Below are positions 3,330 to 49,573 of a stretch of 64,000 bases of DNA, piece by piece. A program made the translations under genes and the position numbers. Where the stretch lies: assembly GCF_000003815.2 (NCBI RefSeq), contig NC_049985.1:5280982-5344981 (forward strand), written 5' to 3'. Positions within the stretch are counted from its first letter, which is position 1, and every line of letters begins with the position of its first letter. The DNA is from Branchiostoma floridae. Taxonomy: Eukaryota; Chordata; Leptocardii; Amphioxiformes; Branchiostomatidae. A model generated the notes under the pieces. It saw nothing but the letters and a program-made list of their open reading frames with translations. It had not been told where the DNA came from and searched no databases.

Positions 3330-5155
3330 TCAAGAATATTTCTGCGTCCCGTCATCACGAAACCAAGCCGCAACGGCTCTACACCCGCGAACAAAAAAAT
3401 TTCCACTATCTTCATTCCTAGGGACGGTTAACTCACGAACAATATGACAGTTTTGGGCTGTCTCGTCGTCAAATACAAACACAGACGCGCTCTTCATCTG
3501 GAATGACTGGTTTTTGATAGCCTCTATTACGAAGTCCGGAATATCCCCTACAGGAATACCTCTTTCAAATGCTGGCACCCGTTTTCCATACACAAGGTGC
3601 CCCACAAACTTGATTTTCCTGCGTGGGTTTGCTTTTAGGATGTCACCCTGCTGTTTCTTAAGTGTCTCACTAATACGTTTGCCTTCGCCGTCGGTGTATC
3701 TTACATCAGCGTTGGGTAGGTGAGGCCTTGCCCGTCCGTGTTTTGCGGCTGTCTCGGACTTGTCGCGTACGGATACTCTCTGGGCAGCACGGGACGAGTC
3801 TTCATAAACTTTCGCAGGATGGGATTTAGGATCAGTCCGTGGTGTCTGGTTCTTAGTTAGGTCCGTGGACGTGCTCGGAGCACTGGTCGGTTCTGGTTTG
3901 GGCAATGGCCTTGAAGGCGGTGTCGGCTTGAAGGGCTGCTCTAGGCCGGGTTGTCCTGACGAGATGGCCCGAAGGTAGCCCCCTAGCGCCTCCTCGTGGA
4001 CAGGGTTGTGCCGCTCGTCCCAGGAGAAGACGAAGCCCCGCCTGCCGTCCAGGTACGTGTCGTCAAACTGTGCGGCGATCTTGTGGTAGGCCCAGGTGGA
4101 CAGGACGCTCTTGTCCTGCTCTCCGTCCTTGTACCGGTCATCTCCACCGATCACTACAACGACATTTCCTGCAAAACAAGCAAAAATTTGTAAGACAGAA
4201 TAGAAACAACTGTTCAATACAACGTTTGTACGTGTCTCCTCTTTCATCGGTATTTTGTAATCTGTATGTTTACATACCTGCCATAACAGCTACATGCATA
4301 AACAATGCCCATACGACCTCATATGCGAAATAAACGGTTTCCAACTCCAAGAATTATCAAGGATGAGTTATTTATTGATTGATCTTTAGGGTAGTCCCTT
4401 CAGTTAACGTAGTAACTGATTTCCAAGGGAGCCCTATAACAATAATAATGATCAACATATACACGCAAAATTTGTAAGACAGATATTAAATAGAAACAAC
4501 TGTTCAATACAACTACACAGATATGTATAATGTAGTTTGTACGTGTCTCCTCTTTTATCAGTATTTTGTAATCTGTGTGTTTATAATTACATACTTGCTA
4601 TAACAGCTACATGTATAAGCAGTGTCCATACGACCTCATATGCGAAATAAACGCTTTCCAACTCCAAGAATTATCAAGGATGATCAACATGTACACGTTG
4701 CAAGTGTTGTTCTATGTAATGATTACCACTTTCACTTTCACCAAAATATGTCTATCTTTGTGCTTTAACTGCAGCAATGTGTCCCTCGCCCTCTCTTCTA
4801 CTATTTTTACATAATTTCTATGGCGGACAGTGGTTTCTCTCTTAGTCACCTGTTAGTATCGTATTCTGTTGAAAACCATACCTTGTGCTGCCCCCAGCAG
4901 TGCCTTGTACAGCACAGCATATCCGATCCCGGCTTTGTCCTCGTTAATACTCAGACGCGATTCGTAGCCGTTCACTACGAACACCCCGCACAGGAGCCGC
5001 CGCTGTCGTACTTCCTCACTCACCGACTCCAACTGCGATATTGGTAGGATCTTTTGCTGTATGGGTATGCCCTTGTCCACGCTTTTGAACAGGGACACGA
5101 CAGAGTCTAAGGGGTATGTACTGTCGCAGTTTACTATCAAAACCTCGTTGGCCAT
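3330..5155 (-). CDS. X1: two-exon protein of unrecognised family
   Basis: Exons 5155-4882 and 4168-3330 join in phase 1 to give about 370 aa. The N-terminal ~190 residues look like an alpha/beta domain. It has a first hydrophobic strand VLIVNCDSTYPLDSV, a second strand LLCGVFVVNGYESRLSINED followed by AGIGYAVLYKAL, then VVVVIGGDDRYKDG and GFVFSWDERHNPVHEEAL. A Pro/Ser/Thr-rich linker follows. The C-terminal domain contains KFVGHLVYGKRVP and ASVFVFDDET, shared with X2 and X3. I recognise no known family and assign no function. There is no signal peptide or membrane segment. X2 is the closest paralogue and the first ~200 bp of exon 2 are almost identical. The intron carries a local duplication and a GAAAGTGAAAGT word. 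Confidence 0.8.
4182..4684. repeat. Local tandem duplication in the X1 intron
   Basis: The stretch 4182-4363 (TTGTAAGACAGA, CGTGTCTCCTCTTTCATC, CATACGACCTCATATGCG, AACTCCAAGAATTATCAAGG) recurs at about 4466-4684 in the same order with scattered differences and small insertions. The offset is roughly 290-320 bp. It is intronic, so probably of no coding effect. Confidence 0.75.
4728..4739 (-). promoter_or_regulatory. ISRE/IRF-like site in the X1 intron
   Basis: On the minus strand, the coding strand of X1, the sequence is GAAAGTGAAAGT. It matches the GAAANNGAAA core bound by IRF proteins in vertebrates. It lies about 120 bp inside the only intron, close to the start of X1. A single match is expected by chance in this much DNA, so function is inference. 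Confidence 0.3.
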
Positions 5156-6801: not shown

Positions 6802-9333
6802 TCATGCAAGTTCGTCAATCAGAGCATCTAGATTGAGGCATCTTGATGCCAACTCCTCTCTTCCTTTATAAGAACCATCGTCAAAAATGACCACAACTTC
6901 AAGCCCTTTTCCTCTGATACCTGGCTGAATGTAATCTGGAATGGGGAACACATCCGCACCTTCAGGGTAATCATATCTGCTGACTACCTTCCCATTCACA
7001 AAGATCTGGATAACTTTAACTATTCTTCCTTCTCGATATGTTTCAATCTTTTCCCTCAGCTGTTGTGGAAATTTGACAATCAGATCAGACAAATCGATGA
7101 ATTCCCATCCTACCCCTCCACTTAAAAACCCGTCGTCAAAAACAACAATCACTATAGCCCCTTTCACACCCTTGCTTTCATCAATAGCTCGCTGTATTTT
7201 AGCTGGAATGGAATATGCATTCCCGTCTTTCAGAAAATCATACCTACTCTTTTCTTTCCCATCAACATAAAGCTGGATAACTTTCACTGTTCTACCTCGT
7301 GTGTCTTTCTCGATTTTTTCCTTCAGACCTGTTGCTAACTTGGACTCTTCAGCTTCATTCAACAAAGATAGACATAGAGCGATAGGATCTAACTGAACCC
7401 GGCTCGGCCCTGACATACGTGTATTGCCATCTGTAGAGTGTGGCTGTATGTTTTGAGTGACTTTGGGCGTGTAAGATGCAGAAGCCCCTAATGGGTCTTC
7501 AAAGTCTGTGCCCGAGTCTACAGTTTTATGCTCGAGTTCGTCTTTTCTTGCTTTTCTTTGGGACTCATTTGTCCCTTTGTCGTCATGTTGCCGGGTCCTT
7601 AGATGACTCGTGAGGCCGTGTGCGTTAGTGTGTTGCTGTTGTTGAGAGGTGCTTGCTGGTCCTGTTTCCTTTTTATCTTCGCGCACCTCAGTTTTCGTTG
7701 GCGCTTCTTTCTGCGGTGCATCTAATGTTGTGGCTTGGCGTGGAGTTGACGGTCCACGTTTAGGATCAGTCCGCGGTGTCTGACTCTTACTTATGTCCGT
7801 GGACGTGCTAGGAGTACTGATCGGTTCTGGTTTGGGCAATGGCTTTGAGCGCGGTGTCGGCTTGAAGGGCTGCTCTAAGCCAGGTTTTCCTACCGAGATG
7901 GCCCGCAGGTAGCCCCCTAGCGCCTCCTCGTGAACCGGGTTGTGCCGCTCGTCCCAGGAGAAGACGAAGCCCCGCCTGCCGTCCAGGTACGTGTCGTCAA
8001 ACTGGGCGGCGATCTTGTGGTAGGCCCAGGTGGACAGGACGCTCCTGTCCTCTTCTCCGTCCTTGTACCGGTCATCCCCACCGATCACTACAACGACTCG
8101 TCCTACAACAACAGGTAACGTTTGTAAGGTTTATTATTAAAACTCACAGAGTAAAACGGACAAGTCTTTTATAACAGCAAATAGCACATATCTATCAACC
8201 CCTTGCTCATAGCCTATGTATAACCTTACCAATCAAAGCCCTGACTGGTTTCAGACAACGTGATATACACATATACACTGCTTTCCTTCGTATTCTCTCT
8301 TAAGGCCCCCTCTCACTTGACGTGCGGCACGCTTGCGGCATTGCTGCGTTCGGAAGATGCTCAACGAATTCAGAGATAAAGAACAAATTTTCTTACTTGT
8401 TGTATATTTTGTCGTNNNNNNNNNNNNNNNNNNNNNNNNNNNNNNNNNNNNNNNNNNNNNNNNNNNNNNNNNNNNNNNNNNNNNNNNNNNNNNNNNNNNN
8501 NNNNNNNNNNNNNNNCAGCAATGCCGCAAGCGTTCCGCACGTCAAGTGAGAGGGGGCCTTTACAGTTCTAAATGAAGAAACATACTAGTATCATCATCTT
8601 AGGGATTTTTAGAGTGCCATCTTTAACACATTTATGAACATAATCAAGATTTCTAATCGCTTTCTTGTCAAATCAATATATTTATTGAGACTCAACAGAA
8701 CATGCCTGGGAGTGCTAAGAAAAGGATGGTAGTGGTTCCTACACAGGGTGGGCACCTCAAGCAGATGATACATATGCAATGAGGTTTGAACATGAATAAA
8801 TGTTAAAACAGACACTTAATTGAGTCACAGAATTAGCTGGTATATGCCTGGAAAAATACGAACAAACGTTTGATCATTTTAGCGATGTAATTATGACATG
8901 GTTATGATATAGAGACTGTAACTGTGTACTCGACAAATGGCTTTCGCTTTTAGTTTTGAGGGACACCCAAAATCGGTCCATGGATAATACGCAAGTACAT
9001 AATTGAAGCTTGAACACTTTGTCATTCTTAATTTCGTATTCTGCTGAAAACCATACCTTTTGCTGCCTCCAAAAGTGCCTTGTACAACACAGCATATCCG
9101 ATCCCGGCTTTGTCCTCGTTAATACTCAGGCGGGACTCGTAGGCGTTCACGACGAACACCCCGCACAGGAGGCGCCGCTGTCGCACTTCCTCACTCACCG
9201 CCTGTAACTCTGACACGTTACAGTATCGTTTCTCGATCCGAGTATTGCTACCCGGGGTATAAGTACGTTTCAGCAACGCTTCTACAGAATCTAAAGGGTA
9301 CGTTTTGTCGCAGTTAATGAGTAAGACATCCAT
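6802..9333 (-). CDS. X2: X-family protein with duplicated C-terminal domain
   Basis: Exons 9333-9057 and 8102-6802 join in phase 1, giving about 525 aa. Residues 1-~165 match X1 (VLLINCDKTYPLDSV, LLCGVFVVNAYESRLSINED, VVVVIGGDDRYKDG, FVFSWDERHNPVHEEA). A long low-complexity linker (about 170-330) is rich in Pro, Ser, Thr, Gln and Lys. Two tandem copies of a ~70-residue domain follow at about 348-419 and 438-507. Each reads REGRxVKVIQxxVxGKxxSRYD, then a Pro-containing helix, then a hydrophobic strand ending FDDG. The family is unrecognised. The intron (8103-9056) contains a MITE interrupted by an assembly gap. The start is the first ATG, aligning with X1 and X3. Confidence 0.8.
8303..8559. 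mobile_element. Harbinger-like MITE spanning an assembly gap
   Basis: The ends AGGCCCCCTCTCACTTGACG (left) and CGTCAAGTGAGAGGGGGCCT (right) form inverted repeats that extend for about 45 bp to GGCATTGCTG. Both ends are flanked by TTA (8300-8302 and 8560-8562). A 3-bp TTA duplication is typical of PIF/Harbinger elements. The interior is largely N, so its true length is unknown. It sits in the X2 intron. Confidence 0.8.
8416..8515. other. Assembly gap (100 N)
   Basis: Exactly 100 N bases, a conventional size for a gap of unknown length. It lies inside a palindromic element, which may explain why assembly failed. Confidence 0.99.
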
Positions 9334-11820: not shown

Positions 11821-14800
11821 TTACTTCGGAAATAGGGCGTTCTGAATAGCAGACCTCATTCCGAGCGATAACTTTGACTTCACTTCGCCCCAGAACTCTT
11901 TCAGCCCAGCAACGTTGTATACGTCTTCGTCTTCCAGCTTCTGAACCGCAGAGTCCACCTTCGCCTCTTCCCAACCGTGCTTCTGGCCGATTTGGGCCAT
12001 GAAGTCTCTCACTGACAGGCTGGTAGCGTCTGCGGATGTATATTGAAATGAAATAAATGTACATGGTAGCGTCATAGAAAAATACACATGTCATAAAAAT
12101 ACTCAATAATGAAAGTTAGTTGAACCTGGCTTCCATAAACTTTGACTTTGCCGTATAAACATGGGTACAAGCGCTATGGTCAGACAATCAGTGAGGTTCG
12201 CGTGCGATAGTTTTCCATGCGAGTTTGCCATCTTCTCTCCCACTAATACACTAAACTAATTTTACAATTGTAAACCAGTGGTCCGTGAGACTCCTTGTGG
12301 TTTCTGAACTATTTCGTGACTCGAGCTCTCTGGTTGATTTCGATTCGGACTTAAAATCAGTACGTACACCTAACCATTACCAAACTTTTCCGCTTAAAAC
12401 CGGGAGCACTATGGGACAGCCTAAAGGAAATTAAATCGTTACCGCGCCAGCCTGTGCAAACCGGCTTTAGAGCCTGACCAGGGCCTATATCGGCCAAAAC
12501 CCACCCCCAACCCCTACGGGGCCCCTTACAGTTATGACCAAGGCATAACAGTAGTTGTCACCTGTAGTTGGTTTTGCACGCGCCTTAGCTGCTGCTTCCC
12601 GCTGTTGCTGCACCTTGATGTACATTTCTGCTGAGATCAGTGCCGTATCCAGGATCTCCAGGACATTGATGGTGGACTCTTGAGTTATGGTGGTTTTTGC
12701 TGCAATGTGATTGACGAAAGCGTATGTCCTGTGGAAAAATAACTATATTTTAAAGAAATCTCTGTGCCATGATGTAAGAGCATAGACAGATTATGTGACG
12801 TTTACCAGCAGCCTAGTCAATAATTCGGCTTACAGTCAGACACACACAACATAGAATTTATAAGATGCAAAGGAAAGAATCCATTCCTTACCTGTCACGT
12901 GGAGCTCCCATGGATGCAGACATTTTGATCATCGCTGACTCTCTCTTGCCCTTGTCGTTGAAATCGGCCTCGTTTATGAAAGCCACCGCACCTACGGGAC
13001 TGTAGCCTGGAAATACAGGAATAAGTGACACGGAATTTATTATATTCCTGTACAATATATTATTTCCAACTTGTGTTTAACTTGAGTCCGCCGTCACTTC
13101 GTCCTCGTGCCTTTATTTGTATTATTACATGTCTTTTTCAATAAAAAGAATGTTAGAACGACAACGTTTTGTATATTGACAAGAGCACTGTAAAACACTG
13201 TTACCAAATGTATTACAGTTTCCTCTACTGGTAGGGAAATTTAAGCTCATCAATCGGTAATGGAACGGATTAGCCTATTTCTACCTTCCTCCCTCAAGCT
13301 CTTCCTGATATTTGTCATCTTCTCTCCGTATGCTTTGGGATCTTTGTGGCCCAGAACACAGATAACAGCGTGTATCTTGTCCTGTAGTGGAACAGGGCCC
13401 TCCCTCATCCGGGTTTGGCCCGAGCTCAGAGACTCCTTCTCTTCTTTACTTCTCACAATCACCTGAGACGGGCGGATTTTTCCTGAAAGCAAATCACCAT
13501 TCACCAAGTCAAGCATGATTGCATGTCGGATACTTTAAAACTCTTGATCACTTCCCAGTCAAAGGATTCCAGCATTATGCCTGTCAAAGATTTGATGTTA
13601 AGTTCCACAGTATGGACATAAAGCAGTGTGGTTGGAACTTACCAAAAAATGAAATTGGAATATAGCTTATTTCCATATTTAAGATAACGGAGGTAACAAT
13701 ACAGAAAACGATCCAACGTACGGCAATATATTTTCCTGTATATACATGCCGTACGATATACTTCACACATGACACAATAGCAATGAGTTGATACACCGCA
13801 ACAGGCCATATTAAAAGAAGCTGTCTAAGCTACTTCTATTATAAATATGCCATGCTAACCTGTAAGGATGTTATCCAACTCTTGATGCATGGAATCGTCC
13901 AAGTCAAAGAAACCCCTGGTGTCGACCAAATGGAATTTTAATGTGGAGCCGGCGAGGTACTTCTCGAGGATGGTGGTACCCTCCTTAGAATCCGCCTGAA
14001 CGAGGGCCGTAGTCTTTCCTGAGCACACAATAGTAACGGCATCTATCTCAAACTTTATAAAGTTCTAAGCGAATATAGAAATTTAAATACTTATTTCAGT
14101 GCACTGTAAATTAGTTAAAAAAACATTTCAAGAACAGTCCGCGTATCTGCTCTGCATTCAACTGGCTCCGATATCATACATTTTATACTTTTATAATTAC
14201 TGCCCTCTTGTTTGGGCGGTTAGATCGATACATTAAGCATAATGTTCCAATGGGTTTCTTGTATATGTAACAAATACATGGGTACATTTGCACACATATC
14301 GTGCTTACACATGCTGGGGCATGGCACCCCATTCAATAGCAAACGTACTTTCCCAGGACGAAAACACCTGCGTAACCCGGAACACAAGTTACCGTCACAA
14401 AGCATTGACGCAACGTGCCTTTCACCCTCGTACAACGCAAACAGGGTTTCACAAGCAAAGAATTCTGTCTCACAGCCATGTTTGTTACGGTTGGTACGGT
14501 AAAAAGATAGAAATTATAGAGCTCACAGAGACTATGCAATGTCAGGGCAAATAAGTAGAAGTACGTTAGGTATTCGCAGAAATCATTAAAATACACTTTA
14601 TGAAATACACTTTACATAGTCGACAAATAGTCTGGGCCGATTGGACGTATGTCAGTTTCAATGTCGTCTGTAAATGATACCGACGACTTGGGCTACTGTA
14701 CCATGATGTCATTTCATATACGTCTCAAGGTAAAGAAGTGCACATACCCAGGAGAATCTGTTCAGCAGTCTGGATGAAACTTGACTTGCCGCTCCCAGTG

Positions 14801-15839
14801 GGCCCGAACATCGCTGAAAAGAATAAACCACAACATAGAGTTACATGGACAATGACACAATAGCGTTGTAATGCCTCTTTATCATAATGTACAGATAGAA
14901 CAATCACAATGGTCTGAACGAAAGTAACGACACGCGACATGGCTTTTATTTTACCTCAGTCCTCAATCGTAGTATAGCTTTATACCAACGGAAAATGATA
15001 GTAAGTTTCTAAATCCACCCATCTCCTTGAATATTGAGTATTTAGGGAAGTTAGTTAATTTGCTATGATTTGTTGCCCACTCTTTTCATTAAACAATGCT
15101 TCGTGGACGGGTAAAGACATTTTTGTACCGATGTTAACGTAGTGGAGTCCTTTGATGTTTTTCTTCTTGCCAACTGTGTAGGTTTTCAACCCACTCAAAA
15201 GGCCAAGGTGATGTCCTGTCATCTTGTCTTCCAGCGCTTTTTGTTCCCTTGCTTCACGGGCATGCCTCTCACTGCGGTCCCTCTCCTCCCTTTCATGTTC
15301 TCGTCGTTGTCTGTCTCTTTCCCGTTCATCTTCATGCTGTCTTTGAAGGTCAGCCTCAGCTCTGCGGACAGCATCTTCGTCATACCTGTCATGCCACCTT
15401 TCTACTTCCTATGAGATAAAAAAAGTCAAGTTGGATAATAAGGGAAAATGTTGTAATATGACCATGTGTAGTATTGTACACTGCACTGTTATGAAGACGT
15501 ACAGGACTGGTATTTGTTACATTCTCCCCAAATGGCAGGAATGTTATATTCCACTGCATTTAGTAAAGGAATCAATCCCAATATACTAACCGTTTTAGAT
15601 TAGAAGTAGTGCTAATTGACGACTTTCATTTCACTTTGTTTCTTTCATTATTGTATACTACACCGTATCATTATCATTATCTCCTTTCCAAGTATACTTG
15701 CAATTAGCCTTCCAGCATGAATTTGCAATAAAATATAAAACAAAATAACAAAATTATCATCATACTTCTATCATTGCCAGTGTATGCGTGTTTCCCGAAA
15801 TGCTAACAAAAAAGTTCCCGAACTTACCCGTGTGCCCAT
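11821..15839 (-). CDS. L1: IFI44-like GTPase with coiled coil and divergent G4
   Basis: Eight exons join in frame: 15839-15828, 15408-15129, 14813-14748, 14018-13860, 13482-13285, 13006-12892, 12728-12562 and 12029-11821, giving about 401 aa. The N-terminus is MGTR followed by a charged, probably coiled-coil region (ERERDRQRREHE). The P-loop is GPTGSGKSS (101-109) and the switch is DTRG (152-155). At the usual THxD specificity position it reads VAFINEAD (246-253), so guanine recognition may be altered. The IFI44 signature continues with TINVLEILDTALISAE. The C-terminus (SVRDFMAQIGQKHGW, KLEDEDVYNVAGLKEFW) is a small helical, perhaps SAM-like, module. L2 has five internal exons of identical length. 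It is divergent with M1. Assignment to the IFI44 family rests on motif order, not a search. Confidence 0.83.
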
Positions 15840-16183: not shown

Positions 16184-18946
16184 ATGGGAGGCGGGGTGCG
16201 TATATACAATCTTTGTCGTCGAAATTGCATTAGGGTTTAAAAAGTATTTCGATTACTATTGTAAATCGCCTATCGAACTGTGACAATGTAAAATATGTTG
16301 TGTTATCAGGGCAAAAATGTCTAGAAGTAAAAACTCGGGCATATGTTTCATTTTCACTTTCAAAACTACACTAATTCTACCCGTTTCTGTGGCAATGATT
16401 CATCTGCATCCGATGTATTTACTGTACGTCACTACTATCTGTATGATCAGAAAATATTGCACGAGATGCACAAGAAATCAGAATTTGAGAATTTTAAAAC
16501 AATCTAACCAAAGGCAATATCCGTACTAAATGCTTTTGTTGACATTTTCATGATTTAAGTTTTTAACTTATCATAATGGTATTTCACCACAGTCAAGTAC
16601 GCCACCACCGCAACCAAGGATTGTGTACGTTGACAAATACAAAGATATCACTGCTGATAAAGTACGGGAAGCCAGAGAAAGGAGAGCTCGAGAGCTGAGG
16701 GAGCAAGCAGAGAGGGAACGAAGAGAAATACAGGAGGCTGAGAGGCGAGATGAGGAAAGACGACGGCAACAGCAACAACGGGAGAAGCAGGAGAAACAAC
16801 GGGAAGCCGAACGCCTCAGAAAGTTGCAGCAGACAGCACTCGGCGAGAGGGAGAAGCTGCTCAAATACTGCTTCGGTGACAAGCATGGTTTGCGCAGCTT
16901 CGATTCCCTCAACATACGCGACATGCAGCAAAGTGACCGCGGCATACGGATTGGTATGTTCGGGCCTTCAGGGTCCGGAAAGAGCAGCTTTATAAACACC
17001 TGTGAACGCGCTATGAAGCTAACCGACAAGGGTAGGTTCATACATATAGTGTTCTATAAAACAGTGTTGTTTTCACGCTTGAGAGAAACGGCCTGCCATT
17101 TTTCAGGCACGATGATGTATTTTATTTGCTATTGAAGTGCTTTCGTGCAAACAACTATACAGTATTCACATGGATAGCCTCTTCTCTCTCAAAGACGAAA
17201 TGCCAAATTGATTTAATATCCTGATCTGAATTACATGCCTTTCGTTCCACAGGCATTGTTAGATAGTTTTCGAATTCAAAAACAAAGACGGATGTGTGTG
17301 TATATGAGTGCGCGCACGCGTGTGCTGCAACAATGATTAATATAGCACAACAACTGGCTTTTGCTTTGCACTGCTTGGGGCAAATAACATGTCGTTTCAC
17401 AAGGGATCAAGATTGCAGAAGACGTACTTAACAAACTTGTCTCATTTTCAGGGAGTTGTGAGACCCAGACAAGCGGGGCGGAAGGCACAATCCTCGTCCA
17501 AGAGTACCTTGACGACATCGAAGGATGCAAGTTCTGCCTAGTCGACACTCGTGGCTTCTTCACCTTCAGCGTGAGTGAGTTCCTGGCCATGACTAACATC
17601 GTGTATGGACGGATCCTACCAGGCGAGATGATCAACCTCAAAGGCGCGAAAAAGGTGGATAAGGAAGACAGCTGGGACACATTCTCCAACTGGCTCCATG
17701 CCGTCGTCATTGTCCTGTCAGCGAGAGACCCAAACCTCCTGAATGGGAATCATACAACCAACCTGAACACAATCCGGGCGTTTATGAAACCAAGAGGTAA
17801 ATCATTACCTGACATTTGAACCAGCGGTACAATTCATATATAATCATCCTCATTTGGTGTATTCGTAAATGCCGAGTTCTTTCGGGTCTTGTAATAATGG
17901 TGACCTGACTTATATTTTCCAAGATGTCTTACAAATACATTTTGTATGTCATTGTGCAATACATCTTTGACAAACTACCAACAAGAATACAATGGGAGTA
18001 GAACTTAATTTGGGCATATATGGAATGTAATTGCAATAGACTTGCCGGATTTGTATAATTTGATTTTCCCAGGTATTGCCCCAGTTTGTGTCGTGACACA
18101 CGTTGACGAGGTCAGGGACAAGAGTCAGTTGGACCAGATCAAGACGAAGGCATCCGCTGCAACAGGAAGCCCCGAAAGCCACGTCTTCTTCATCGAGAAC
18201 TACCATCCAGAGCACAACGAGCGAGACTGCAACATCGAGCTCCGGGCGATGGAAATACTCAACTCTGCGCTCACGGTGGGAGAGAGATACGTGAAGATTC
18301 ACAAGCAGCAACAGCAGTACGAAAAGGAGGAAAAGCAGGCAGCTTCCGGTAAGTCACTACAAAACATTTCCCTCTCTGTACAGTCAAGCCAATGTTGATC
18401 AAACCACAAAATACTGTTACGGACTATTACAATTTATAAGTGGCATCCAAAGCTGGGTAACACTCTGGGTAACACTCTACACTCTGCTCCCCTAACCCAA
18501 AATACTGTCTGTTATTATTAAAGAGTAATAATCATGTCAGCGCAGAGTGCTCCCGTGATACTCTAAACAGGTATTAAAGTTAAGTGTATCTTTACATTTT
18601 TATCCAGGTCAATCGAAGGAGGAAGAATCCATCGACAGCCTCTTTCAGCGCCTGTGTGACACAAAACACATTCCGGTAGGTAATAAGATTACAAACCCAG
18701 TAAAGATATAGACATAAAAGATTTGAATTGAAATGATTTTTATACCCATTTGGTTGCATTATCCGCTATTGATTATGATATCTTTTTGTTGTACAGCATG
18801 CAAAGGTGGAGCCAGTCATCGCTCTACTGAAGGAAGAAGACGTTACAACGGCCAGACTGCTCCGAGACAACTGGGGCGACTTGGAAGATGAACTACCAAT
18901 AAGTTCACGAATGAAAACATACATCAAAGAGGCTATATCCGAGTAG
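16184..18946 (+). CDS. M1: IFI44-like GTPase with N-terminal coiled coil
   Basis: Six exons join in frame: 16184-16195, 16593-17031, 17452-17796, 18073-18348, 18608-18675 and 18797-18946, giving about 429 aa. Exon 1 encodes only MGGG. Residues ~18-95 are Arg/Glu/Gln-rich and likely coiled coil (ERERREIQEAERRDEERRRQ). The P-loop is GPSGSGKSS (128-136), the switch DTRG (182-185) and the G4 THVD (274-277). ENYHPEHNERD and EILNSALTVGERYVKI match the C-terminal part of vertebrate IFI44/IFI44L. The last two exons encode a helical module (SLFQRLCDTKHIP / VIALLKEEDVTTARLLRDNW) shared with the RING proteins. Vertebrate IFI44 proteins are interferon-induced; the role here is unknown. AATAAA signals lie at 19370-19380. 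Confidence 0.87.
16345..16366 (-). promoter_or_regulatory. Triple GAAANN (ISRE/IRF-type) element in M1 intron 1
   Basis: The minus strand reads TTTTGAAAGTGAAAATGAAA followed by C. This gives three GAAA cores at perfect 6-bp spacing (GAAAGTGAAAATGAAAC), the form of IRF-bound interferon-stimulated response elements. It lies about 165 bp after the M1 start codon and about 510 bp from the L1 start. Three in-register cores are much less likely by chance than a single pair. Activity in this organism is inference. Confidence 0.5.
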
Positions 18947-19849: not shown

Positions 19850-20455
19850 GAGACTTATTTTGCAATAAGATTGCTTCAATTGACGTTTTATTTCTTTGAA
19901 GGTAACCCCACGTATGCATAGATGTTTATGACGGATGGGCTGCGTTTTAATGTAAAGCTACTTTGTGCCACATTGTACCCGCCTATGGAATTATAACTAA
20001 GACTGAAAGAATGACGTCGATTACCTTCCAATAGTTTGGTCTCAATTTTTGTTCCCTAGTCCTGTATTGTGTCTTTTAAGGAACCGACAGAAAACATGAG
20101 CTAGGCGAGCGAAAATGTAAATGAGCACTAGCTTGCTCAGCTTAAGTTTGATGGATCCTTTCCGGACACTAAATGCACAGTCCCGCTCTCCTTCTACTAG
20201 TTCTAGAGTTTGGCGAAATGCCATGCTTCGGATTCAAGTCCTTTTTCGGGAAAAAAGGGCTTGAATAGTAAGAGGAAAATACCACCGAAGCTTTGGTACA
20301 GAAAGATGCCGACGTGACATGAAATAAAGTGGATGGTTTCAGAATCACTATGATTCAGGCACAGTATACGTTCTACCCCCCCTCCAGGTCAAATGGACGT
20401 TCCTTTTACGAAAAATCTACCGGCTTGGCCCAGACCAGAGTCTCTATAATCTACA

Positions 20456-27724: not shown

Positions 27725-27767
<43 letters not shown>

Positions 27768-31918: not shown

Positions 31919-33711
31919 GTTCACAATGCTGGGCGCATTCACAAGGCAAGGTCAGAGGTGACGACTTTTGCACGACTAGACCGACAAAGTACACCCCTAA
32001 AGAGGCCCCGCGCTAGCGCGCGCGCGCGAGTGTATGTGCTACTAGTAGGCACTCTTATCAGTCCCTAACTATTTGGGGCTGGTTATACCAAGGATAAAAG
32101 TTCTTTGGTTATATTAAGCCTAACGACTTTTGGCACAAGGAGAACTTTCCAAACGTACAATGCATGTGGTATCCTATCAGTATTTACAACAGTGAGTGTG
32201 ACTTGCGCACTGACATTTTTGACAACAAACAACATATACAATACATTCCGAAAACACTTCGTGGACATCCTGACAAGGACGACAACCTGCGTGTCCATAG
32301 AGAATATCCAGGGTAGTTGTGATCTGTGAGTCTTTACTTATTGTCCCTTTTGTGTATGGGTAATGTTGTCTGTGATACAGCGGTATGCGTGTAACGTGAT
32401 CCAACCATATTCCATTTACCCTGGAGTGTAAAAGACTAAAAATTCCTTTGTAGTAATGTATATACACACTAAGTAAAGTGAACTTACCGCCAAGAGATCA
32501 ACACCGGCTTAAAATATTATGAGCTGAGCAGACTGATATGTACCGGCAGAGATCTCTGCCAGTAGAATCGGGGATTCTACTCTGACATATACATACAATA
32601 CAAATATACACTAGTCACGGTTTGGAATGCAACTGTCCTAGGACAGTGTCCTCAGAGATTTGTCCCTCTTTCACTTACAGTATCTTTAAAAAACTACGCA
32701 TGCCCGGTCCTTCCCGGCCAGAGAAATACATGACGGTATCATCATGAGTATAATTAATCCCAACTCCCTAACGTCTGAATCCTCTGCTGAGGTGTACTAT
32801 GACCAGAACTGAAAGGTCAAGACAAAGGTCGTTCATAGTTCAGTCCACTCTGCAGCTTAACCATTATGTCTGGGTCAGCAACAAGTTGCCTTTGATCATC
32901 TTGACGTGTTATTTACGGCCGAATGATAAAGATAGCTTATTCAAATACAGGTAAGTAGGTTTGATGGCGAATTAGTTTTCCAGTTGATAACATTACCCAG
33001 TCTTTGAAAGCACATGATGTGAATGTAAACTAGATAGTTGATATTCACCACAAGGCCACATTTATTTATTTATTTGGATTCTCCACATACAATAACAATG
33101 GAGGGTATGGCGAAACAGGTGTCAACGGACACCTTTTCAAAGCCGCCATACCGAAATCATAACAATGATACATCAAATAATAATACACATACCAGTATAG
33201 CCATTTTTGTCGACGCCTCAGGAGCGATCCCCAGAGTATTATATGCAGCTATGTAGCTTGCAAGAATTTCAGGAATTGTACACAAGAATTCGCATCATCT
33301 ATTACACACATTAATAAGATATCATTTGTTCATCTGAAGCAAACATACCTGATAATGTGGAAAACTGATAATGTGTCACACAACGGGAACATGCTATTGG
33401 TAAACTAACACACTACGAGGCAACTTGTTGTTCCTAAAATTAATATTCAAAGCAGTCACCACCACTACATTAGAAAGCTCTTAAGTACATTATAAGTGGC
33501 TCTGGTTGAGTTTGTTAAGTAAGGCGAGAAGGCAGTACATGACTGAGAAATCTAACAGCTGGGTCTCCTATACTGAATACAGATATTAAACAGTCAATCC
33601 TACAATTGTGTCTACATAATAAATTGAGTATATACTTGACAAAGGTTGCAATTGTATTTCATGCTACGAAGTGGCAGAAATACTACGCGTCAAGACTTAG
33701 TATGTGATGGG
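31919..33711. other. Intergenic R2-L2
   Basis: No coding exon was recognised; block II lacks X genes at this position. Small palindromes occur at 32.53 kb (GGCAGAGATCTCTGCC next to AGTAGAATCGGGGATTCTACT), at 32.63 kb (CTGTCCTAGGACAG) and at 33.10-33.15 kb (GGTATGGCG ... CGCCATACC). An AAATAAATAAATAAA run on the minus strand (33058-33075) could supply the L2 polyadenylation signal. Confidence 0.5.
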
Positions 33712-38216: not shown

Positions 38217-40793
38217 AAGGACGTCACAAAGGACAAGATCAGGGAGGCTGCGGAACAGAAGAGAAGAGAGTACGAGAAGCAGGAAAGGGAGAAAGATGAG
38301 CAGCTAAGACAACTGCAAGTTGAGGCAAACAGTAAGAGGGCAGAACTTCTCGGGTATCGATTCGGGTATATTCGCGGGCAACGTTACTTCGCAAACCTGG
38401 ACATTCGCGATATAAGACAAGAAGGCGTGAGAATCGGGCTGTTTGGACCCGCAGGATCGGGGAAAAGCAGTTTCATCGTCACTTGTGAGAGGGCTCTGAG
38501 GCCGTACCTATGCAAAGGTGGGTGTTAGGGGGTAACGGAGACGGGGGCTCGGTATACAGTTCCTTTCAAACTGTCGTCGATCCACTGACCTCGCATCTAA
38601 ACAGTTGAACCTATGACAAAATGTTATGGTTATCACAAAAATGAAGAAAACATCAATATTTCCCCTCAGGCCCACATGCATATCTCTCACACATTATGGC
38701 ATAATCTGAAAATATCTTTCATGGTAGTATTTATATGATTAAGTGTCATTGTTGCTTGTTAAGTGTCGTTCCAACAGAACACAATATTGTAGAGAAAGAG
38801 AGAAAGAGAAGACGAATATTCAAGTGAAAACATACCAACAAATAACCACACATTGATATTGTGCATCAGGCACTGCTGGTATCCAGGATGCCGGTGGGGA
38901 GGGTACCATCATTCTGGAAGAATGCTTAAAGGAACTCGGCAGTGACTTTTGTCTTGTCGACACTCGAGGTTTCTTCAGACATGACGCTGATGAGTTTACA
39001 GCCCTGACCAACATAGTTTATGGACGGATTGAACCTGGACAGGTAATGTTACTGTAAACGACCTTATTGAAATTATTACTTGTAGAAATTTGACATGAGA
39101 GCAAACCAATGCGATATTACAATATTATGCATCAGTGGCTCTTGAAGTAAATACGTTGTTATAAAGCTTCTGTCGTACAAGCTTTCTTGTTGTTAACTTG
39201 TATATATGCTCTATTCATCAGCATATCACATTTGATCGCCGAGTGGACAACGTAGGATCAGAAGCTTATTTTTCTAAATGGCTCCACGCCATCATCATTG
39301 TTCTTTCGGCAACTGACCCCCGTCTACAAGATGGCCACACTCATCGGAACAATTTAAACGTTGTACGCGAGTTCATGCGCCCAAGAGGTATGTTGTTGAA
39401 AATGTGCTTTAGATATTGGTGTTCGGAGGAACTTGCTTAGAAACATATGATTTTATGTTCTAAGGCATACATGAAGTAGTATTTACTCAATGTAAATACA
39501 TCTCAGCCTCTTTGATTTTGCTGTAGGGATAGCTCCAATCACGGTCATCACTCACCACGACAAGATAGGGAAAGGTGAAGAGAGAGACATCTTGACCAAG
39601 GCGTCCACAGCAACAGGTAGCTCTCGTGACCACACATTTTTTGTCACCAACTACCACGAGGACAAGAAAGACAGAGGTTAGTAGACTACGCGATTCAAAC
39701 TGGAAACAGATTATCGGTAGTTGTTTGGTCATCAGAACTTAGGACATTACATACACGTCAGACTCTTCATTTCACTTCAAATTCAAAGCAACCCATGGCC
39801 ATAACAATTACATTTTCAATACTTTTCATTTCCATCCTCTCACAGTTACATCTCTCACTCATCACACTCCCCGCTAACATATTGTTCCCACTCCCCTTTA
39901 AATATTTGGAGTTAATAAGTATATAATTATACCCTCTCTTCATTTCCTCATTGATCTGTATCCGAGCGTGAAGGAAAACAAAAAAAAACTATTTTCTTGC
40001 CCTCCCATGTTTTCTTAGATTATAACACCGAAATCGAAGCAATGAAAGTCATGAAATCAGCACTTAATGTCGCTGAACGCTTCGTCAGGATCCACAAGCA
40101 ACAAGAAGTGTACAAGGAAGTGGATAAAGCGAGATCAAGTCAGCGTGGGACAGGTAGGAATCAAACTAAGACGATTTTGTTTTGTTTAATCCCATGACGA
40201 CTGAAAGACGGGATTTCGTAATTGGTAACTTAACCAATATGATTTTCAGACTCTATTGTTAATCTGTTAAGTGATTGATGGGTTTAGCAACTCTGTGTAC
40301 ATTAACTTGATATTAATTTATGTGAGTGAGTAGTATATGGGTAATACAAAAGATTACTACGATGTTGTTATCCACAGAGGCTGTTGAGGACTTCTTCCGA
40401 CGCCTTTCAGCCAAGAGGCACATTCCCGTGAGTACACAGAGTGGAAATTTACTAATAAAGCTGATTAAGTAAAGGGTGAAGCCAATCTGTGAACCTACCA
40501 CAATAATCGAGCGTCAAGAACAAAATCTGGACGGGGCACATATGGCTTAATACACATAAGATATACAGAAGTTTTCATGATGGTCTTTAGAAACCTCTAA
40601 GGTCAATTTTTGTAATTTATAGTTTGGAAGATTTCAACCCATTATCGACGTGTTGAAGAGGGAGGACATCACAACGTCCCAGTCCCTCTGTGACAACTGG
40701 AGAGACGTCCAATACACAGTGTCAATGAGTGACCCAATGAAGGACTACATCGACGAAGAATTAAGTAGCACATTACAAAACCTTCATCTGTAG
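38217..40793 (+). CDS. M2: IFI44-like GTPase, 5' end in assembly gap
   Basis: Visible exons are 38217-38517, 38870-39042, 39222-39387, 39527-39676, 40019-40153, 40378-40427 and 40623-40793, giving at least 381 aa. The partial coiled coil (EQKRREYEKQEREKDEQLRQ) is followed by P-loop GPAGSGKSS, switch DTRG, the conserved KWLHAIIIVLSATDP and G4 THHD. TNYHEDKKDRDYN and MKSALNVAERFVRIHKQQ match M1. The last two exons (DFFRRLSAKRHIP / IIDVLKREDITTSQSLCDNW) carry the C-terminal helical module, with a slightly longer tail than M1. Two introns present here (after GRIEPGQ and after KKDR) are absent from M1. Likely function is as for M1. Confidence 0.85.
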
Positions 40794-41836
40794 GTTCTGT
40801 ACCGTACACAAAAATGATATCGATCGTTTCTGCTGGTGTTATTGTTATGGCACCCCCATGCACGCCCGGGTCGACAGAAGAGACGACGGTGGAGTTTTCT
40901 TACGTAAGGTTAAGAGTGGTTTCAAACACAAATGAACCAATACAGATAATGTGTTGCCTGATCCCTACGTCAAAACATTGTTAAGGAATGCAATAAGTAG
41001 TGCATGTTAACGGGACATGACAGAAGCAACAAACCAAACAATGCAGAAATAGCCAGCCATTTCAAATTAAATTAAGAATTTCATTAGAAGCAGGAATGTA
41101 CACGTATAAACATATCTATCGTGTATAATTGATAACTGTGTAACTATTTGACTACTCATACATGTAGGTCGTAGAGGCTAGAAACGTTATCAACTATACA
41201 CGTTATATAGTCGTTGTTGTCGACTACACATGGTATTTGTTCCTCTAAATGTGCATAGCTTTGTAGGAAAACGGGTGAACCATTCGAATTTCTATATTTT
41301 TTGGTCGCAACTTTAAAAGTGATGTAGAAATATTTAAGGCGAATATAGTGCGAGGCTAGACAAAAAAGAAAATCAAAAAGCGTGTGCTGTCTTATTTGAG
41401 TGTGAATTGAACTGAATTACATGCAATTAAAATTTGCCTTAAATGAGATATACATGGATTTGTAGTCTCTGTTTCAGATATATATTTCAACATTTATTAG
41501 TTACCTTTCGCTATGAAAGTCAAAGCACTACGATAGCCATTGATCAATAGTTTGTGTCATTCCTGGGTTCACCCATGAGCTGGTAAACAACAAACAAAAA
41601 AGGTCAACCAAGACGGCCTCATAGTTATGCATACTTGCACAGGCATGCCAGTTAATCTTTGACAGAGAGAGGAGGCAGACGTGATTGCAAAATATCAGCA
41701 CTGCCTATCAATGAGAGAGGCTGGACTTTTGATACTTTATAGATCCGCTTTATCCTTGGAGATTCCTGCAAATTTGATTTGTGCAAATTATATCCTTATT
41801 TAGAACTTGACGTAAGAAACGTGTAGGTAAGCTACG
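40794..41836. other. Intergenic M2-S2
   Basis: No gene was seen. An inverted repeat CGTGTATAATTGATAAC (41120-41136) / GTTATCAACTATACACG (41186-41202) may be another small foldback element. The segment should include the S2 promoter. Confidence 0.5.
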
Positions 41837-44800
41837 ATGAGCCTCTGTAAGATCAACGACTTGAAATATTTCTTGAAAGCTTACAAGGTAGGAAATTTTA
41901 CACACAGTTTCCCTGACGCGGGAATCGGGGAAATGGAAGACTTTAGTGTGCGGATCGGTCTGTTCGGGATAACAGGATCTGGTAAAAGCTCGTTTATTAA
42001 CTCCGTAGTCATGGCCCTAAATGACGACGACGTGGGACCCGCCGTAACACAGAGTACGGGCGCCGAAGGTGGGTAGCCTTTCTGATACGAATGGAGAAGT
42101 AATGGCGAATCTTTCCGGTGTGACAGCGATCTCGCCCCCCCGTGATCTCGCCCCCCCGGGGGCGAAATCACTAGCGATCTCGCCCCCCCGGGGCGACATC
42201 GCTAGCGATCTCGCCCTCCCCGGCTAGTGATCTCGCCCCCCTACCTCGCCCCCCTTTAGCGATTTCGCCCCCCCCCCCCAAAAAAAACGGGTTTACATGA
42301 CATTTTAGAAGTTGATTGGTATGAATCACAAAATGCAGTTTCAGAATGATATAAGTACACGAGTCTGATACATAACTCCATTCATAGTATCAATAGTAAC
42401 GTAATTACATGGTAATAAGATAGTTGAACTTGTTTCAGACAAGGAGGGTTGGGTCCCTTGTATTCCCATTATTGCATATACCTGAGTCTTGGCATAAGAT
42501 GTATTTCATTGTATTCACCTGTCCTCAAACAACCTATATATCTCCAATATGAAGTCTCTACCATGAAGTGACCACAAAAGAACTATGTAATGTCCTTATT
42601 AATTATGCAAATATTAGGTATTAATTAGAATAACGCACATTTTGGTATATGCACCTGGCCAAGGGATATCTTCACCTCCAACATGACTGTTTTTTCTAGT
42701 ATTTAGGAACTGATGCATTTACCCGTGTTTCTTAAGACTGGTACTTTGCCAGTGTTTGTGTAGCATTTAGCAACAGCTATATCAACTTGCGCGTAGATAG
42801 TGTTTATAATGAGAAACTATTATTCACGTGTGTTTTTGTTAGTGCTTTGGAAATGTTTCCAGCACAAGAAAGAAAACACTGTGACAAATTGAAAACATAT
42901 AGCTGACGTATTCCGTACCATAGACGGTGTTGATTTATACGTTCGCAGTAGCACTGTTTTTATGTCACCTCAGCTGCAAAAATTGTCTTTTTCATTTCAA
43001 TGTCATGTTTGCACCGAACAATATAGTATCGACTTTCGAGGTATGACATCTTACGGTACGGTAATAAGGTGCCATATAGGTACCAGGTAACACACCATAC
43101 ACGTTACTCCCCAGGTGCAGTATAGTACCAGGTAGCGCACCTGTAATATGTAGTAACCAGCTGCTCTTTGGGGGGGGGGGGGGCGAAAACGCTAAAGGGG
43201 GGCGAAAACGCTAGTGATCTCGCCCCCCGGGGGGGCGAAATCCCCGGGGGGGCGAGATCGCTGTCACACCGGTGTATAAATGCTACTTTACATTTAATAT
43301 ACTATTCACAAAAACAGCATTATAACTTCTACAATCTTGCATGATCTTATACGACTACATGGCCAGTGTCCACATTAGGAAAAAGTGCGTAATGTTTCAT
43401 TCATGCGCGAGATACTTACAACGTAGAATGTATCGGTCTATTTACATTCCTCGCTACCCAAGTCTATAGATCTGTTACTTTAAATGTTTGTACGTTTTGG
43501 TCAACGGACATTGCCCATGTAAAAAGCTATCTTCACTTAACTGTGATGGGGCTGGTGCATTATGATGAGCGGCTTGAGACTGCCCCTACTATCATTTGGT
43601 GTATTCTACAGCCATGGCAATTTGGATAAAAAAATTAAATGGCAGCCTTATAACGGCTGAATAACGTATGTATTAAAGACGATTATGTATCTATTACAGG
43701 CATTAAAAAAATCAAAATCAATAATATCAGAAGAGTTCTATAACAGATTTAAAGATTCATAAAATACCTTCCTTGCCACCTACACCTGCTACTTCCAATG
43801 ATATTTGTAGGTTTTAAATTCCTGCATTTTAAATTTTGCAAATAAATTTCAACAATCTCTTTCAAATGTTAGTGACATTCAACAATTACTCTTATATTTC
43901 TCATCGAATCTGTAATATGGGATAATCGTTTGGTATACAATCGCTATGGTTTTAACAAAAATATTTTGGACCGATTATGGTCCAATTTCCCCGCTGTATT
44001 GAAGCACATTCTGTTTAACAAAACAGCCTCAGCCATATATGTTTACGCAGGATCTTCGCTACTTCTATTTGTATCATGTAAGGTTATCATTTAGTATTAT
44101 GTAAAGTCAAATTATCATAAAGCAGATACACTTTTACATAAAGTACAGCTTACATGCTTCACAGGAACGATAATTTTGGAAACCTTTCCAATTACCGATC
44201 GGTTCACTCTCCTGGATACAAGGGGCTTCGACTGCCTTGGTGGGGACGCCGAACAGGAAATACTGGCCATTTTGAATGGCGACATCAGAGACGAAAGCTG
44301 CATTGACCGAAGTATGTCAGAAATCTTATGTCTCACAGTAACAATATCTAATAAAAAGACAATGATATCAATGGCACTGGACATTAAGCCTTTAATATTG
44401 CAAATTTATACTGGAGTAAAAAGTAACTTCATACATTTAATTCCGGAAGAAACGCTTGATTTTAGGGGGGGTAGAAGGTGGAAAATGAAATGAAGTTTTC
44501 TCTTGTTTTATTCTTAAACCAGACAAGTAAGAGAAGGTTTAGGCCAAAATCCCAGGCTACAATACGAGGTATCACCATACAGACACGTGTCACTTTCGTC
44601 AACATAAATAGACTGATTCCGAAGTAATTAACCGTTATGGAGCTGTATCTTGCCAACAGAAAGGATGGTGAAAACTTCGTTGGCAGGAAAAGGCACAAAC
44701 ACGAAAGACGAGACTCACATCGTGCTGTGGTTTGTGAACGCCATGGACCCTCGGCTACACAGAGGTGCCTATAGTCGCCACATGGACTTTCTGCGACATC

Positions 44801-45585
44801 AACTCTTCAGAAGAGGTAATTGTTTTATGTACTACTTTCTAGCAGGGAAGTCTTCCAGGATGTATTGAACAAACAGCCGTCACATTTGTCAAAAAAAGAC
44901 CTAATACCTATATACTTGCACAATAGACGCAAAACACTGAGCAGGCTATCGAGTAACACGACCCATTTTAGAAAAGTTTGAAAATCTCAATATTAAGGAA
45001 AGAGTTTGACCTATGATAAAGGCCTTATTTGGTATAGGCTGTATTTGTGTTGGAATTCTCAGTGACGACATGGCAACTTGATGCATTTCTATCTGAATCT
45101 TATTCAGGTTTAATCACTTAAGTACTAATTTACTGTTTGTTTATTTAAAAAAAAACAGTAAATTCCATCTGCCGCTTGTGTAGTTCGTTATATAACAATA
45201 TTTGTAAACCATGACATGAGTAAGGGCAGGTTACCGATGTTGGCTTTTATTTTTGCTCTGTTCCCACTGAAATGGGTCCATAAGTAATGGACTTTCTGTT
45301 ACAGGAGTGCTAACTATGACCATCCTTACACATGAAGACATGTTGGACTCGAAGGGAAATACTCCAGAAGAGAGGCATAAGCTGTCTGAGTCTGCAAGGG
45401 AGATAACCGGAAGCTTCCACGAGAATACATATTTCCTGTCCAACTTCATCAAAGGGAAGGAATTCTCCGATGAAAACAGACTTAAGGTTCTTGAAATAAT
45501 CAAGAGGTCTCTAGAGCTCTCAGAGAGCACAATCAAGACACGACAAACAAAGAAGAGACTGGCTTCAAGGTTAAAGAATACGTAG
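41837..45585 (+). CDS. S2: short IFI44-like GTPase
   Basis: Exons 41837-42068, 44165-44311, 44660-44815 and 45305-45585 join in phase 1, giving about 271 aa. The P-loop is GITGSGKSS (44-52), the switch DTRG (95-98) and the G4 THED (187-190). LAILNGDIRDES and IVLWFVNAMDPRL match S1, and FLSNFIKGKEF plus EIIKRSLELSESTIK complete the domain. Compared with S1, exons 2 and 3 are shorter by 27 and 39 bases, in frame. There is no coiled coil or C-terminal helical module. Intron 1 (about 2.1 kb) holds a foldback DNA element. A polyadenylation signal AATAAA lies at 45878-45883. Confidence 0.86.
42115..43272. mobile_element. Foldback element with repeated GATCTCGCCCCCC termini
   Basis: The left end CCGGTGTGACAGCGATCTCG is the exact complement of the right end CGAGATCGCTGTCACACCGG. 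Subterminal arrays of GATCTCGCCCCCC / CTAGCGAT units (42128-42280) are mirrored by GGGGGGCGA / CGCTAGTGATCTCG units (43165-43262). The ~880-bp core has no obvious coding sequence. The structure resembles foldback-type DNA transposons with internally repetitive TIRs. Flanking duplications were not clear. It lies in S2 intron 1. Confidence 0.8.
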
Positions 45586-46816: not shown

Positions 46817-49573
46817 ATGGTATCCGTTGAAAGCGAGGACGTTCTTATCATAAATTGTGACGATACGTTCCCGCTGGATTCTGTGCATGAGTTGGTCGAA
46901 AAATCGTCTCAAGCTACGGGCATTAAAACGAGAATCAAACGTACACGTTTTCAGCTGTCAGATTTGAAAGAAACCAGCGAGAAGGTGAAAAGCGAAAGGG
47001 AGGAGAAAGGAAAACTTCTGTGCGCCATTCTTGTTCTCCACGCCCACGAGTCTCGTCTTTCAGTAAACGAGAAGAACGCAGGTATCGGCTACGCCGTTCT
47101 CTACAGGGCTCTACGAGAGGCCTCCGAAGGTACGAAAACCTACCTTGATTTTATTATGCACTAAGGATATTTCAGGTCACATACAATATCCGAGATCGTT
47201 TTGCATTATACAAAATGAGAAATAAACAATTCTAGCCTGTTCATTTTAAAACAGCCCCGTCTTCCTTATAGTTATACCATGAAGCCTTACTTGAACTAAA
47301 TAAACGTTATAAATAAAACTCGGCACAAAAAGTTTGGATTATCAACTTCGTTTCTTTCTGCATCAATTTCAATGTATTATATATCTATAGAATGCTTGTG
47401 TGATTTTCTTGCTAATGATATCAGTCATTATCATTGTTAATTCATATAACACGCAGGGGGTCACAAAATAGAGTGCCGAAATTACCCTACTTAAGCCAAA
47501 TACTCCATTTGGCTCAATTTCTTCCGTTGGTATATTGACTTGTGAATGAAGGCAAGTTGAATAAACAGGACATGTCAATCAAAGCAACTGTTACTCTTTA
47601 TTCAAGCAAACAATTTGAACCAAGAGGTGTTCAATCGAGTGCTAGCCATAAGCCATAGGAAGGCTATTCCATCCTAAAGGCTAAGACTGTGCTCCAGCAT
47701 CGCATCCTGGAGGTAGTCTGCAATATTAATGGCCCTTGCTCTGTGTGGACGGGTGTTGTAATCGTGCAGAAGGGCATTTGGTCCAATATTGAAGAGGTGG
47801 GATATTGCGACTATATCTCACCACATTTAAGTTGCCTGGAATGATGACGAGTCTTGTTTTTCTCATGGCCCCACGCCATGACGCTGCCTCAACCACCAAA
47901 CGCTAAATGTTACTCTTGCCGTGCCAGCGCGTGGTTCTCCTTGCCACCTCCGGGGTTTGATTCGGTCATCCAACTGTCGAAAGGGCAGATAGAATCTACT
48001 CAAATGTGCTAAAACAAACTTGTATGTTCTGTATAAAAATTTGACGTGAAAAGAGGATTGATTGAATCAGTGACACACGCGCCAATACCAACAGTATGAT
48101 ACAGCGTTGAACTGAAGGAGGGAAATTTGGGCACTTTTTTTTTTGTGACCCACTTAAGTAAGCAGGCCTGGTGCTCGTTTCATGAGTTAACAATCATAAT
48201 AAGTTTGATACTATTGGAAAGGAAATTACACGAGCTTTCTGTTGATATGTAATACATTGACATTCATAAAGAAATAACGGAAATATGATATACCAAAGTT
48301 AATATTCCAAACTTGTTGTGCTGAGTTTATCTAGTGAAATGTATTGCTGGAGTACTATAATTAGTATCCCCCTTTAAAAAGATAAACACATAAGACTCAG
48401 TATATTTCTATCGGAAAATGGAGTGATAAATCATGATAGAGTACCGTTCTATATAATTGTTTTACCTATAGGGTGTGTAAGAATGATTTCCATTACTACA
48501 TTTCAGGGAGAACACTTGTTGTGGTTGGTGGAGACGAGTCCTCAAGAGCCGATAGAAAGGTGGTCTCCGATCGAATCCGCTACAAAGTTGCATCACAGTT
48601 CGACGATGAGTATCTCGATGGCAGAAGGGGCTTTGTGTTCTCCTGGGGGGAAAACTATTATCCCGTACATGAAGAAGCTTTTAATCAGTACCTACACGCA
48701 ATAGGAAGTGGAGAAAAGGGCTTAAAACGGGCATTTGCACCTACCACCCACTTCAAAACAACCGATCAAGAGGAGAACGACGCGGCTGAGGCACAAAAGA
48801 TATCAGAAGATGGACACACGTCAGTGGCAAGTGATTCCAAAAACAGTTTGAAGCAACACGCCGAAACAGGAGAGCCAAAAGATAAAGAGAACTCTATGGC
48901 GACTTTTCAATCCGATGTCAGCTCTTTGACCCCAGATCAATCACACGCGTCTACGTCTCGAGAAAAAGGTGACAATGAAGACATGCCAGCACAGCCAAAA
49001 GATACAGCATCATCAGACTGCCAAATGGGGATTGAAAAAGAGTTGAAGAATGCAACTCACGATACATCCACGACAGCAATGAAACCCCGAGCCCAAAATG
49101 CCCCAAAGGGCTCGCCATCAAATGAGACACACCAAAAGTACCCACCAACGGAGGAGAGACACCAAAAGTACCCACCAAAGGAGGAGAGACACCAAAGGCA
49201 CCCACCAACGGAGGAGAGACACCAAAAGTGCCCAGGATCAGATGACATACAGAGACATGAGATTGAAAAACGGTTGTCAAAACGCATACAGGAATTTGAT
49301 CAGAGGTACCCAGAAAGTCAACCTAAACTTTTTGGAGTGCTCAGAAATGGAAAGTTGGATAAGAAGAATGCCTATATTCTTGATGAGAAAGATCCTACAT
49401 TTATCGTCCCTCCTTACATGGAGGAAGTAGTTTTTATGGAAAAAAGGAACACTCCTGAGGTGGACGTGATTGTCTACATAGATCCCAAAGACGACGGTGC
49501 AATCAGTTTCAAGTACTGGGAAGTTAACGTTCCTGCCCATTCAGGTTGGAAATGGTTCTGTAATTGGACCTGA
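46817..49573 (+). CDS. X3: X-family protein with Lys/Glu-rich repeats
   Basis: Exons 46817-47129 and 48507-49573 join in phase 1, giving about 459 aa. The N-terminal domain is conserved with X1/X2: VLIINCDDTFPLDSV, LLCAILVLHAHESRLSVNE, AGIGYAVLYRAL, TLVVVGGDES, then GRRGFVFSWGENYYPVHEEA. A long polar linker follows. Residues ~311-348 are about 3.5 copies of a 10-residue unit, HQKYPPTEER. The C-terminal ~90 residues (FGVLRNGKLDKKNAY, then VDVIVYIDPKDDG) match the X1/X2 C-terminal domain. It is the only X gene on the plus strand and flanks S2. The intron carries a transposase relic. AATAAA lies at 49952-49957. Function is not recognised. Confidence 0.8.
47585..47950 (-). pseudogene. Tc1/mariner transposase relic
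   Basis: On the minus strand, in shifting frames, appear VMAWG, then KTRLVIIPGNLN, then HDYNTRPHRARAINIADYLQ, then a degraded SIEHLL stretch. These match in order the GxSVMVWGGIS, LVxxxGNLN, QDNARPHxAR and DLNPIEHLW landmarks of Tc1-family DDE transposases. Frameshifts and stops show it is inactive. It sits in the X3 intron. Confidence 0.75.
49126..49235 (+). repeat. 30-bp coding minisatellite in X3
   Basis: The unit GAGAGACACCAAAAGTACCC followed by ACCAACGGAG occurs about 3.5 times in frame in exon 2 of X3, with few differences between units, implying recent slippage or unequal exchange. It encodes HQKYPPTEER-type repeats. Confidence 0.85.

Follow-up and report, generated by a model that had tools for sequence, protein, structure and literature searches.

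What are the three similar two-exon genes that stand on either side of a GTPase gene array in the lancelet Branchiostoma floridae? The genes, here called X1, X2 and X3, lie in a 64,000-nucleotide stretch of contig NC_049985.1 (positions 5,280,982 to 5,344,981 of assembly GCF_000003815.2; hereafter the window), and an earlier note, made from the letters alone, had described them as an apparently undescribed protein family. X1-X3 are a real, constrained family of coding sequences. As to what they do, we give a probability of roughly 40% to the reading that they are functional genes of a small family, probably restricted to the lineage, whose products have a constant core and variable ends and take part, inside the cell, in innate-immune or cell-death signalling.

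Structure of the X genes

The gene models were spliced by hand at GT-AG signals, with splice sites read from the sequence. After splicing, three complete reading frames were obtained, each with one terminal stop, at the coordinates proposed earlier (Table 1). The predicted products have 370 residues for X1 and 525 for X2, both encoded on the minus strand, and 459 for X3, encoded on the plus strand. The lengths of exon 1 (274, 277 and 313 bases in X1, X2 and X3) all equal 1 modulo 3; therefore, the introns of the three genes are all phase 1. This sole intron splits a codon just before the VVxGGD strand, at the same place in each gene, and so the single phase-1 intron that had been claimed there was confirmed in all three spliced genes.

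The X2 intron also carries 45-base inverted repeats (8302-8346 and 8516-8560, 97.8%) around its N run, in the manner of a small transposable element.

The N-terminal domain is conserved and under purifying selection

An N-terminal domain of about 175 residues is common to X1-X3, with 82% identity between X1 and X2 and 53% between X1 and X3. Pairwise tblastn comparisons among the three gave expect values (E) of 1.6e-20 to 3.5e-68, far beyond chance, and bore out the shared domain described in the earlier note. No fourth copy was detected in the 64-kb window by tblastn with the X members, up to E 0.1. The six motifs quoted from the domain, NCDxT(Y/F)PLDSV, ESRLS(I/V)NE, AGIGYAVLY, VVxGGD, LDGRRGFVFSW and PVHEEA, were each present in the alignment of the three members; as the X1/X2 core is homogenised, however, their invariance rests on effectively two sequences, not three.

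Over codons 48-175, X1 and X2 were identical at 120 of 128 positions, with a nonsynonymous divergence (dN) of 0.037 and a synonymous divergence (dS) of 0.215. The dN values for X1/X3 and X2/X3 were 0.44 and 0.37, and dS was not estimable for either pair; therefore, the core has long been preserved. The core of the N domain is under purifying selection.

Around this core the two neighbouring genes have diverged. X1 and X2 agreed at only 8 of 28 codons between positions 20 and 47, a segment in which dS was not estimable, at 25 of 40 between positions 176 and 215, and at 2 of the following 14 aligned codons. On the DNA the same mosaic was seen by blastn: the core is about 90% alike in two tracts that run a short way into the intron (Table 1), the start, the tail and the intron interior are diverged, and the intron interiors and C-terminal tails of X1 gave no match to X2. 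From the sequences, this mosaic may reflect gene conversion of the coding core.

Linker and C-terminal modules

The linker that follows the N domain contains, as judged by eye, many Ser, Thr, Pro and charged residues, and looks flexible; that of X3 includes a tandem repeat with a 30-base unit (Table 1). It is followed by a module of about 85-95 residues, found in two copies in X2, one in X1 and a doubtful one in X3. The tandem modules of X2 resemble each other with a z-score (z) of 26 against 500 shuffles, and the X1 module resembles the second X2 copy with z 6.7. In the model of these modules (predicted local distance difference test, pLDDT, 51.5), the first X2 copy was built as a helix, two strands, a helix and two strands, and the second as a helix, two strands, a three-residue helix turn, a strand and two helices.

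Searches of Pfam, of PDB and of viral and genome contigs with the C-terminal module and with X2 exon 2 returned no convincing match. Pfam matches of the C-terminal part to G5, WH_Rok, DXP_synthase_N and HYR (E 0.049-0.12) were weak and partial, and were taken as chance. Against PDB sequences the module gave four matches, none convincing (best E 0.15). A CIDE-N or beta-grasp (ubiquitin-like) module found no support in Pfam, in these PDB matches or in a Foldseek search (best E 0.12).

Downstream of X3, at 50803-51059 on the plus strand, lies a possible degenerate fragment of the X3 linker and C-terminal module. It shows as 33 bases that match at 85%, plus two weak protein matches in collinear order (E 0.018 and 0.53) that are surrounded by stops.

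Search for relatives of the N domain

The N domain was searched against Pfam-A, NCBIfam, PHROGs, PADLOC, PDB sequences, prokaryote contigs, viral contigs, plasmids and phages, and no convincing relative was found in any of them. The contig scans examined only places matching short peptide patterns, and Pfam matches were listed up to E 10, with the HMMER filters dropping most above about 0.1. Apart from Pfam and PDB, the libraries contain few or no animal proteins; therefore, the earlier statement that no family with these motifs was known stands for the libraries searched, and 'undescribed' is valid only within them. In the prokaryote and viral contigs, scanned with queries from the N- and C-terminal parts, 176, 76, 51, 16 and 36 stretches matched the short pattern and none was a relative. 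Five X motif strings had no occurrence in the literature searched, and topic searches gave no paper on the family among the matches listed.

The matches that did appear were weak. With single members in Pfam, only Lipocalin_10 (E 0.016) and VWC2L_1st (E 0.093) were matched by the N domain, each by one member; the lipocalin match is weak and partial, and was taken as chance. The 26 PDB matches listed for the N-domain profile all fell on lipid-binding proteins or on an ankyrin-repeat protein (E 0.21), and were again weak, partial and ascribed to chance. X2 alone retrieved the same ankyrin protein (E 0.14) and X3 alone eight sequences, the best a designed helical repeat (E 0.0012) with no single stretch passing; both results were taken as chance, as were hits in plasmids and phages (E 0.9 to 7).

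These searches bear on an origin of the family from a virus or mobile element, to which the inverted-repeat elements in the X introns could point. Such an origin is very unlikely: three queries found no relative at the pattern-matching places of viral contigs, none was found in plasmids or phages, the intron occupies one position in all three genes, and the repeat elements are confined to introns.

Fold of the N domain

The order of hydrophobic strands and helices, judged by eye, makes the N domain probably an alternating alpha/beta unit. A Rossmann-like fold, as proposed in the earlier note, is plausible from that order; the fold itself was not borne out by modelling. The folded input was the unspliced X3 frame together with exon pieces of X1 and X2, not the spliced protein, and the model, with strands at 8-12, 42-46 and 605-609 and helices between, reached a pLDDT of 32; therefore, nothing was drawn from it beyond a rough strand and helix order. 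The accompanying suggestion of an enzyme or sensor, made from conserved Asp and Glu residues, is weak with effectively two sequences compared.

A reading that we hold to be about as likely as the signalling one, and that is compatible with it and differs on novelty, is that the N domain belongs to a known alpha/beta superfamily (Rossmann-like hydrolase, HAD, TIR or nucleotide-binding) from which it has diverged, perhaps becoming inactive, and that the two effective sequences hide the relationship. The alternation of hydrophobic strands and amphipathic helices seen by eye is consistent with this, as is the strand and helix pattern of the otherwise unusable model, and most such orphans later turn out to have a known fold. 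NCDxT, moreover, resembles the DxDxT motifs. On the other side, the PDB searches with the profile, X2 and X3 returned ankyrin, lipid-binding and designed helical-repeat proteins and no alpha/beta family, and Pfam returned only the two matches given above.

The motif likeness was followed to the HAD-like and glycosyltransferase DxD families. NCDxTYPLDSV is similar to DxDxT, and 25 residues of the NCBIfam model NF041391 were matched by two of the three members at E 0.014. However, the alignment reads N9-C10-D11-x-T13 in X1, X2 and X3, so that Asn takes the position of the HAD nucleophile Asp in all three, and the X proteins begin at the motif, which in NF041391 stands at position 73. The Pfam matches of X included neither a HAD nor a glycosyltransferase model, and both readings of the motif were dropped as unsupported by alignment, Pfam and NCBIfam. 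Of the families that the earlier note had proposed for a profile check, TIR, SLOG and caspase had no model among the Pfam matches, within the filter limit given above.

An inactive caspase-like domain had seemed an option, since the strand order and the last helix are similar by eye and the score against caspase-3 placed X1 and X2 in the 2-4% tail of 500 shuffles (X3, 14%; CheY control, 72-98%). However, the local match of X1 to caspase-3 connects non-equivalent regions, and with five other caspases the shuffle fraction fell below 0.1 for no X protein. The profile-profile comparison, made with six caspase sequences and without a remote caspase as positive control, scored 12.5; 200 column shuffles averaged 14.1 (70% of them scored at least as high), the reversed alignment gave 12.7, and hhalign gave a caspase probability of 0.12%. 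This reading was rejected because the profile comparison scored like shuffled columns, and we consider it extremely unlikely. The X proteins share with the caspase family (Peptidase_C14) the strand order seen by eye and differ in having neither profile similarity nor the His/Cys dyad: Peptidase_C14 was absent from the Pfam matches listed up to E 10, and the alignment has no conserved His after strand 3 and no Cys after strand 4, as the strands are tentatively assigned.

Genomic neighbourhood

X1 and X2 lie on one side, and X3 on the other, of an array of six GTPase genes between 13.9 and 44.2 kb (Table 1). Six G1 and six DTRG[FY] motifs pair as these six genes, against means of 0 and 0.15 in 20 mononucleotide shuffles. 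All six G1 matches of the window fall outside the X genes, which have none. The two GTPases assembled by hand, of the six, matched in Pfam MMR_HSR1 (E 0.0012 and 0.00022, just under its cut-off) and IIGP (E 0.0059 and 0.017), and one of them AIG1 (E 0.029). One GTPase compared with PDB gave weak matches, at E 0.22 or worse (0.2-0.4), including an interferon-inducible GTPase and GIMAP7. The six may form a separate family related to IRG/GIMAP. The RING genes are duplicates of each other (328-1522 and 30550-31969; three segments match at 94.2%, 79.6% and 79.3%).

Table 1. Features of the X genes and their neighbours, in positions of the window
Feature	Position	Strand	Remarks
X1 exon 1	4882-5155	-	First half of N-terminal domain; from splice and reading frame
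X1 intron	4169-4881	-	Phase 1, GT-AG, 713 bases; internal direct repeat, 80.2% over 217 columns
X1 exon 2	3330-4168	-	Second half of N domain (3918-4168), linker, C-terminal module (3405-3683)
X2 exon 1	9057-9333	-	First half of N-terminal domain
X2 intron	8103-9056	-	Phase 1, GT-AG, 954 bases; contains N run 8416-8515
X2 exon 2	6802-8102	-	Second half of N domain (7852-8102), long linker, tandem C-terminal modules (7069-7338 and 6805-7071)
X3 exon 1	46817-47129	+	First half of N-terminal domain
X3 intron	47130-48506	+	Phase 1, GT-AG, 1377 bases; inverted repeat, 72.1% over 147 columns
X3 exon 2	48507-49573	+	Second half of N domain (48507-48748), linker with tandem repeat (49124-49234), doubtful C-terminal module (49262-49543)
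X1/X2 alike tract, exon 1	4853-5034 (X1), 9028-9209 (X2)	-	182 bases, 90.1%; reaches 29 bases into intron (blastn)
X1/X2 alike tract, exon 2	3825-4194 (X1), 7759-8128 (X2)	-	370 bases, 90.5%; begins 26 bases within intron (blastn)
GTPase-type gene (GxxGSGK[ST]S and DTRG[FY])	13858-14955	-
GTPase-type gene (same motifs)	16554-18395	+
GTPase-type gene (same motifs)	20450-23268	+
GTPase-type gene (same motifs)	34953-36554	-
GTPase-type gene (same motifs)	38400-40194	+
GTPase-type gene (same motifs)	41831-45582	+
RING gene	857-1504		Beyond X1
RING gene	31469-31951		Inside GTPase array
tRNA-binding-domain gene	near 62.6-62.9 kb		E 5.6e-14

Beside the GTPase and RING genes lie two pairs of short helical-looking segments, alike within each pair (11824-12090 and 33715-33942; 334-654 and 30556-30741; all on the minus strand). 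Both pairs are without a convincing Pfam match and are perhaps SAM- or Death-like adaptor domains. Tetranucleotide arrays of GAGT and GTGA are present at 25404-25579 and 27676-27854, about 2.1 kb apart.

Discussion

Under the signalling reading, each X protein would have three parts: a conserved globular N domain that is probably alpha/beta, a linker that is flexible, and a small, fast-evolving C-terminal module in one or two copies. The N domain may serve as a constant switch or ligand-binding core and the C-terminal modules as variable binding parts, and the proteins would act inside the cell alongside the neighbouring RING and GTPase proteins.

Several results weigh against this picture. 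No confident fold was obtained for either part: the N-domain model is unusable, that of the C-terminal module is poor, and Foldseek with the latter gave 478 matches at E<=10 and none at E<=0.001. The family of C-terminal modules is itself uneven, as the X1 module is not significantly similar to the first X2 copy (z 0.8), and the C-terminal segment of X3, of similar pattern, is significant against no other module (pairwise z 1.0 to 2.1). Gene conversion alone leaves the differing intron interiors of X1 and X2 unexplained; later insertions may account for them, inverted repeats and an internal duplication being seen in the introns. Finally, the gene neighbourhood is the only pointer to immunity, and an orphan family of the ordinary kind, with a role outside immunity, could have come to lie beside immune-type genes by chance. 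This alternative is unlikely: the X copies flank the GTPase array on both sides, the same stretch has duplicated RING genes, and uneven, mosaic divergence is common in immune genes.

A bolder form of the signalling reading would make the N domain a new alpha/beta signalling or enzyme domain without relatives in described superfamilies. Working with the GTPase/RING array, it would form the constant centre of a lancelet-type set of immune receptors or effectors, in which the C-terminal modules and the early N-terminal segment diversify while gene conversion keeps the core uniform. We regard this as decidedly unlikely. If the immune link is true, the family brings a further, unassigned domain into the variable defence repertoire of an early chordate, with a mosaic of uniform core and divergent ends; if the N domain is a divergent known fold, X can still usefully seed a family model that is missing.

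Comparison with lancelet immune families

Lancelets have undergone a lineage-specific expansion of TRADD-N immune adaptor proteins (PMC8195603). These adaptors resemble the X proteins in their constant N-terminal region, low-complexity linker, variable C-terminal region and multiple copies; they differ in that the Pfam matches of X included no Death-like, TRADD-N or WD40 model. Presence/absence variation is described for lancelet GTPase immune genes, with GIMAP genes varying among individuals (PMC12373286). To these GIMAP/AIG1 and other variable defence genes the locus is linked by the GTPases beside X, which are weakly similar to MMR_HSR1, IIGP and AIG1, whereas X itself has no G1 motif and no match to GIMAP/AIG1 genes.

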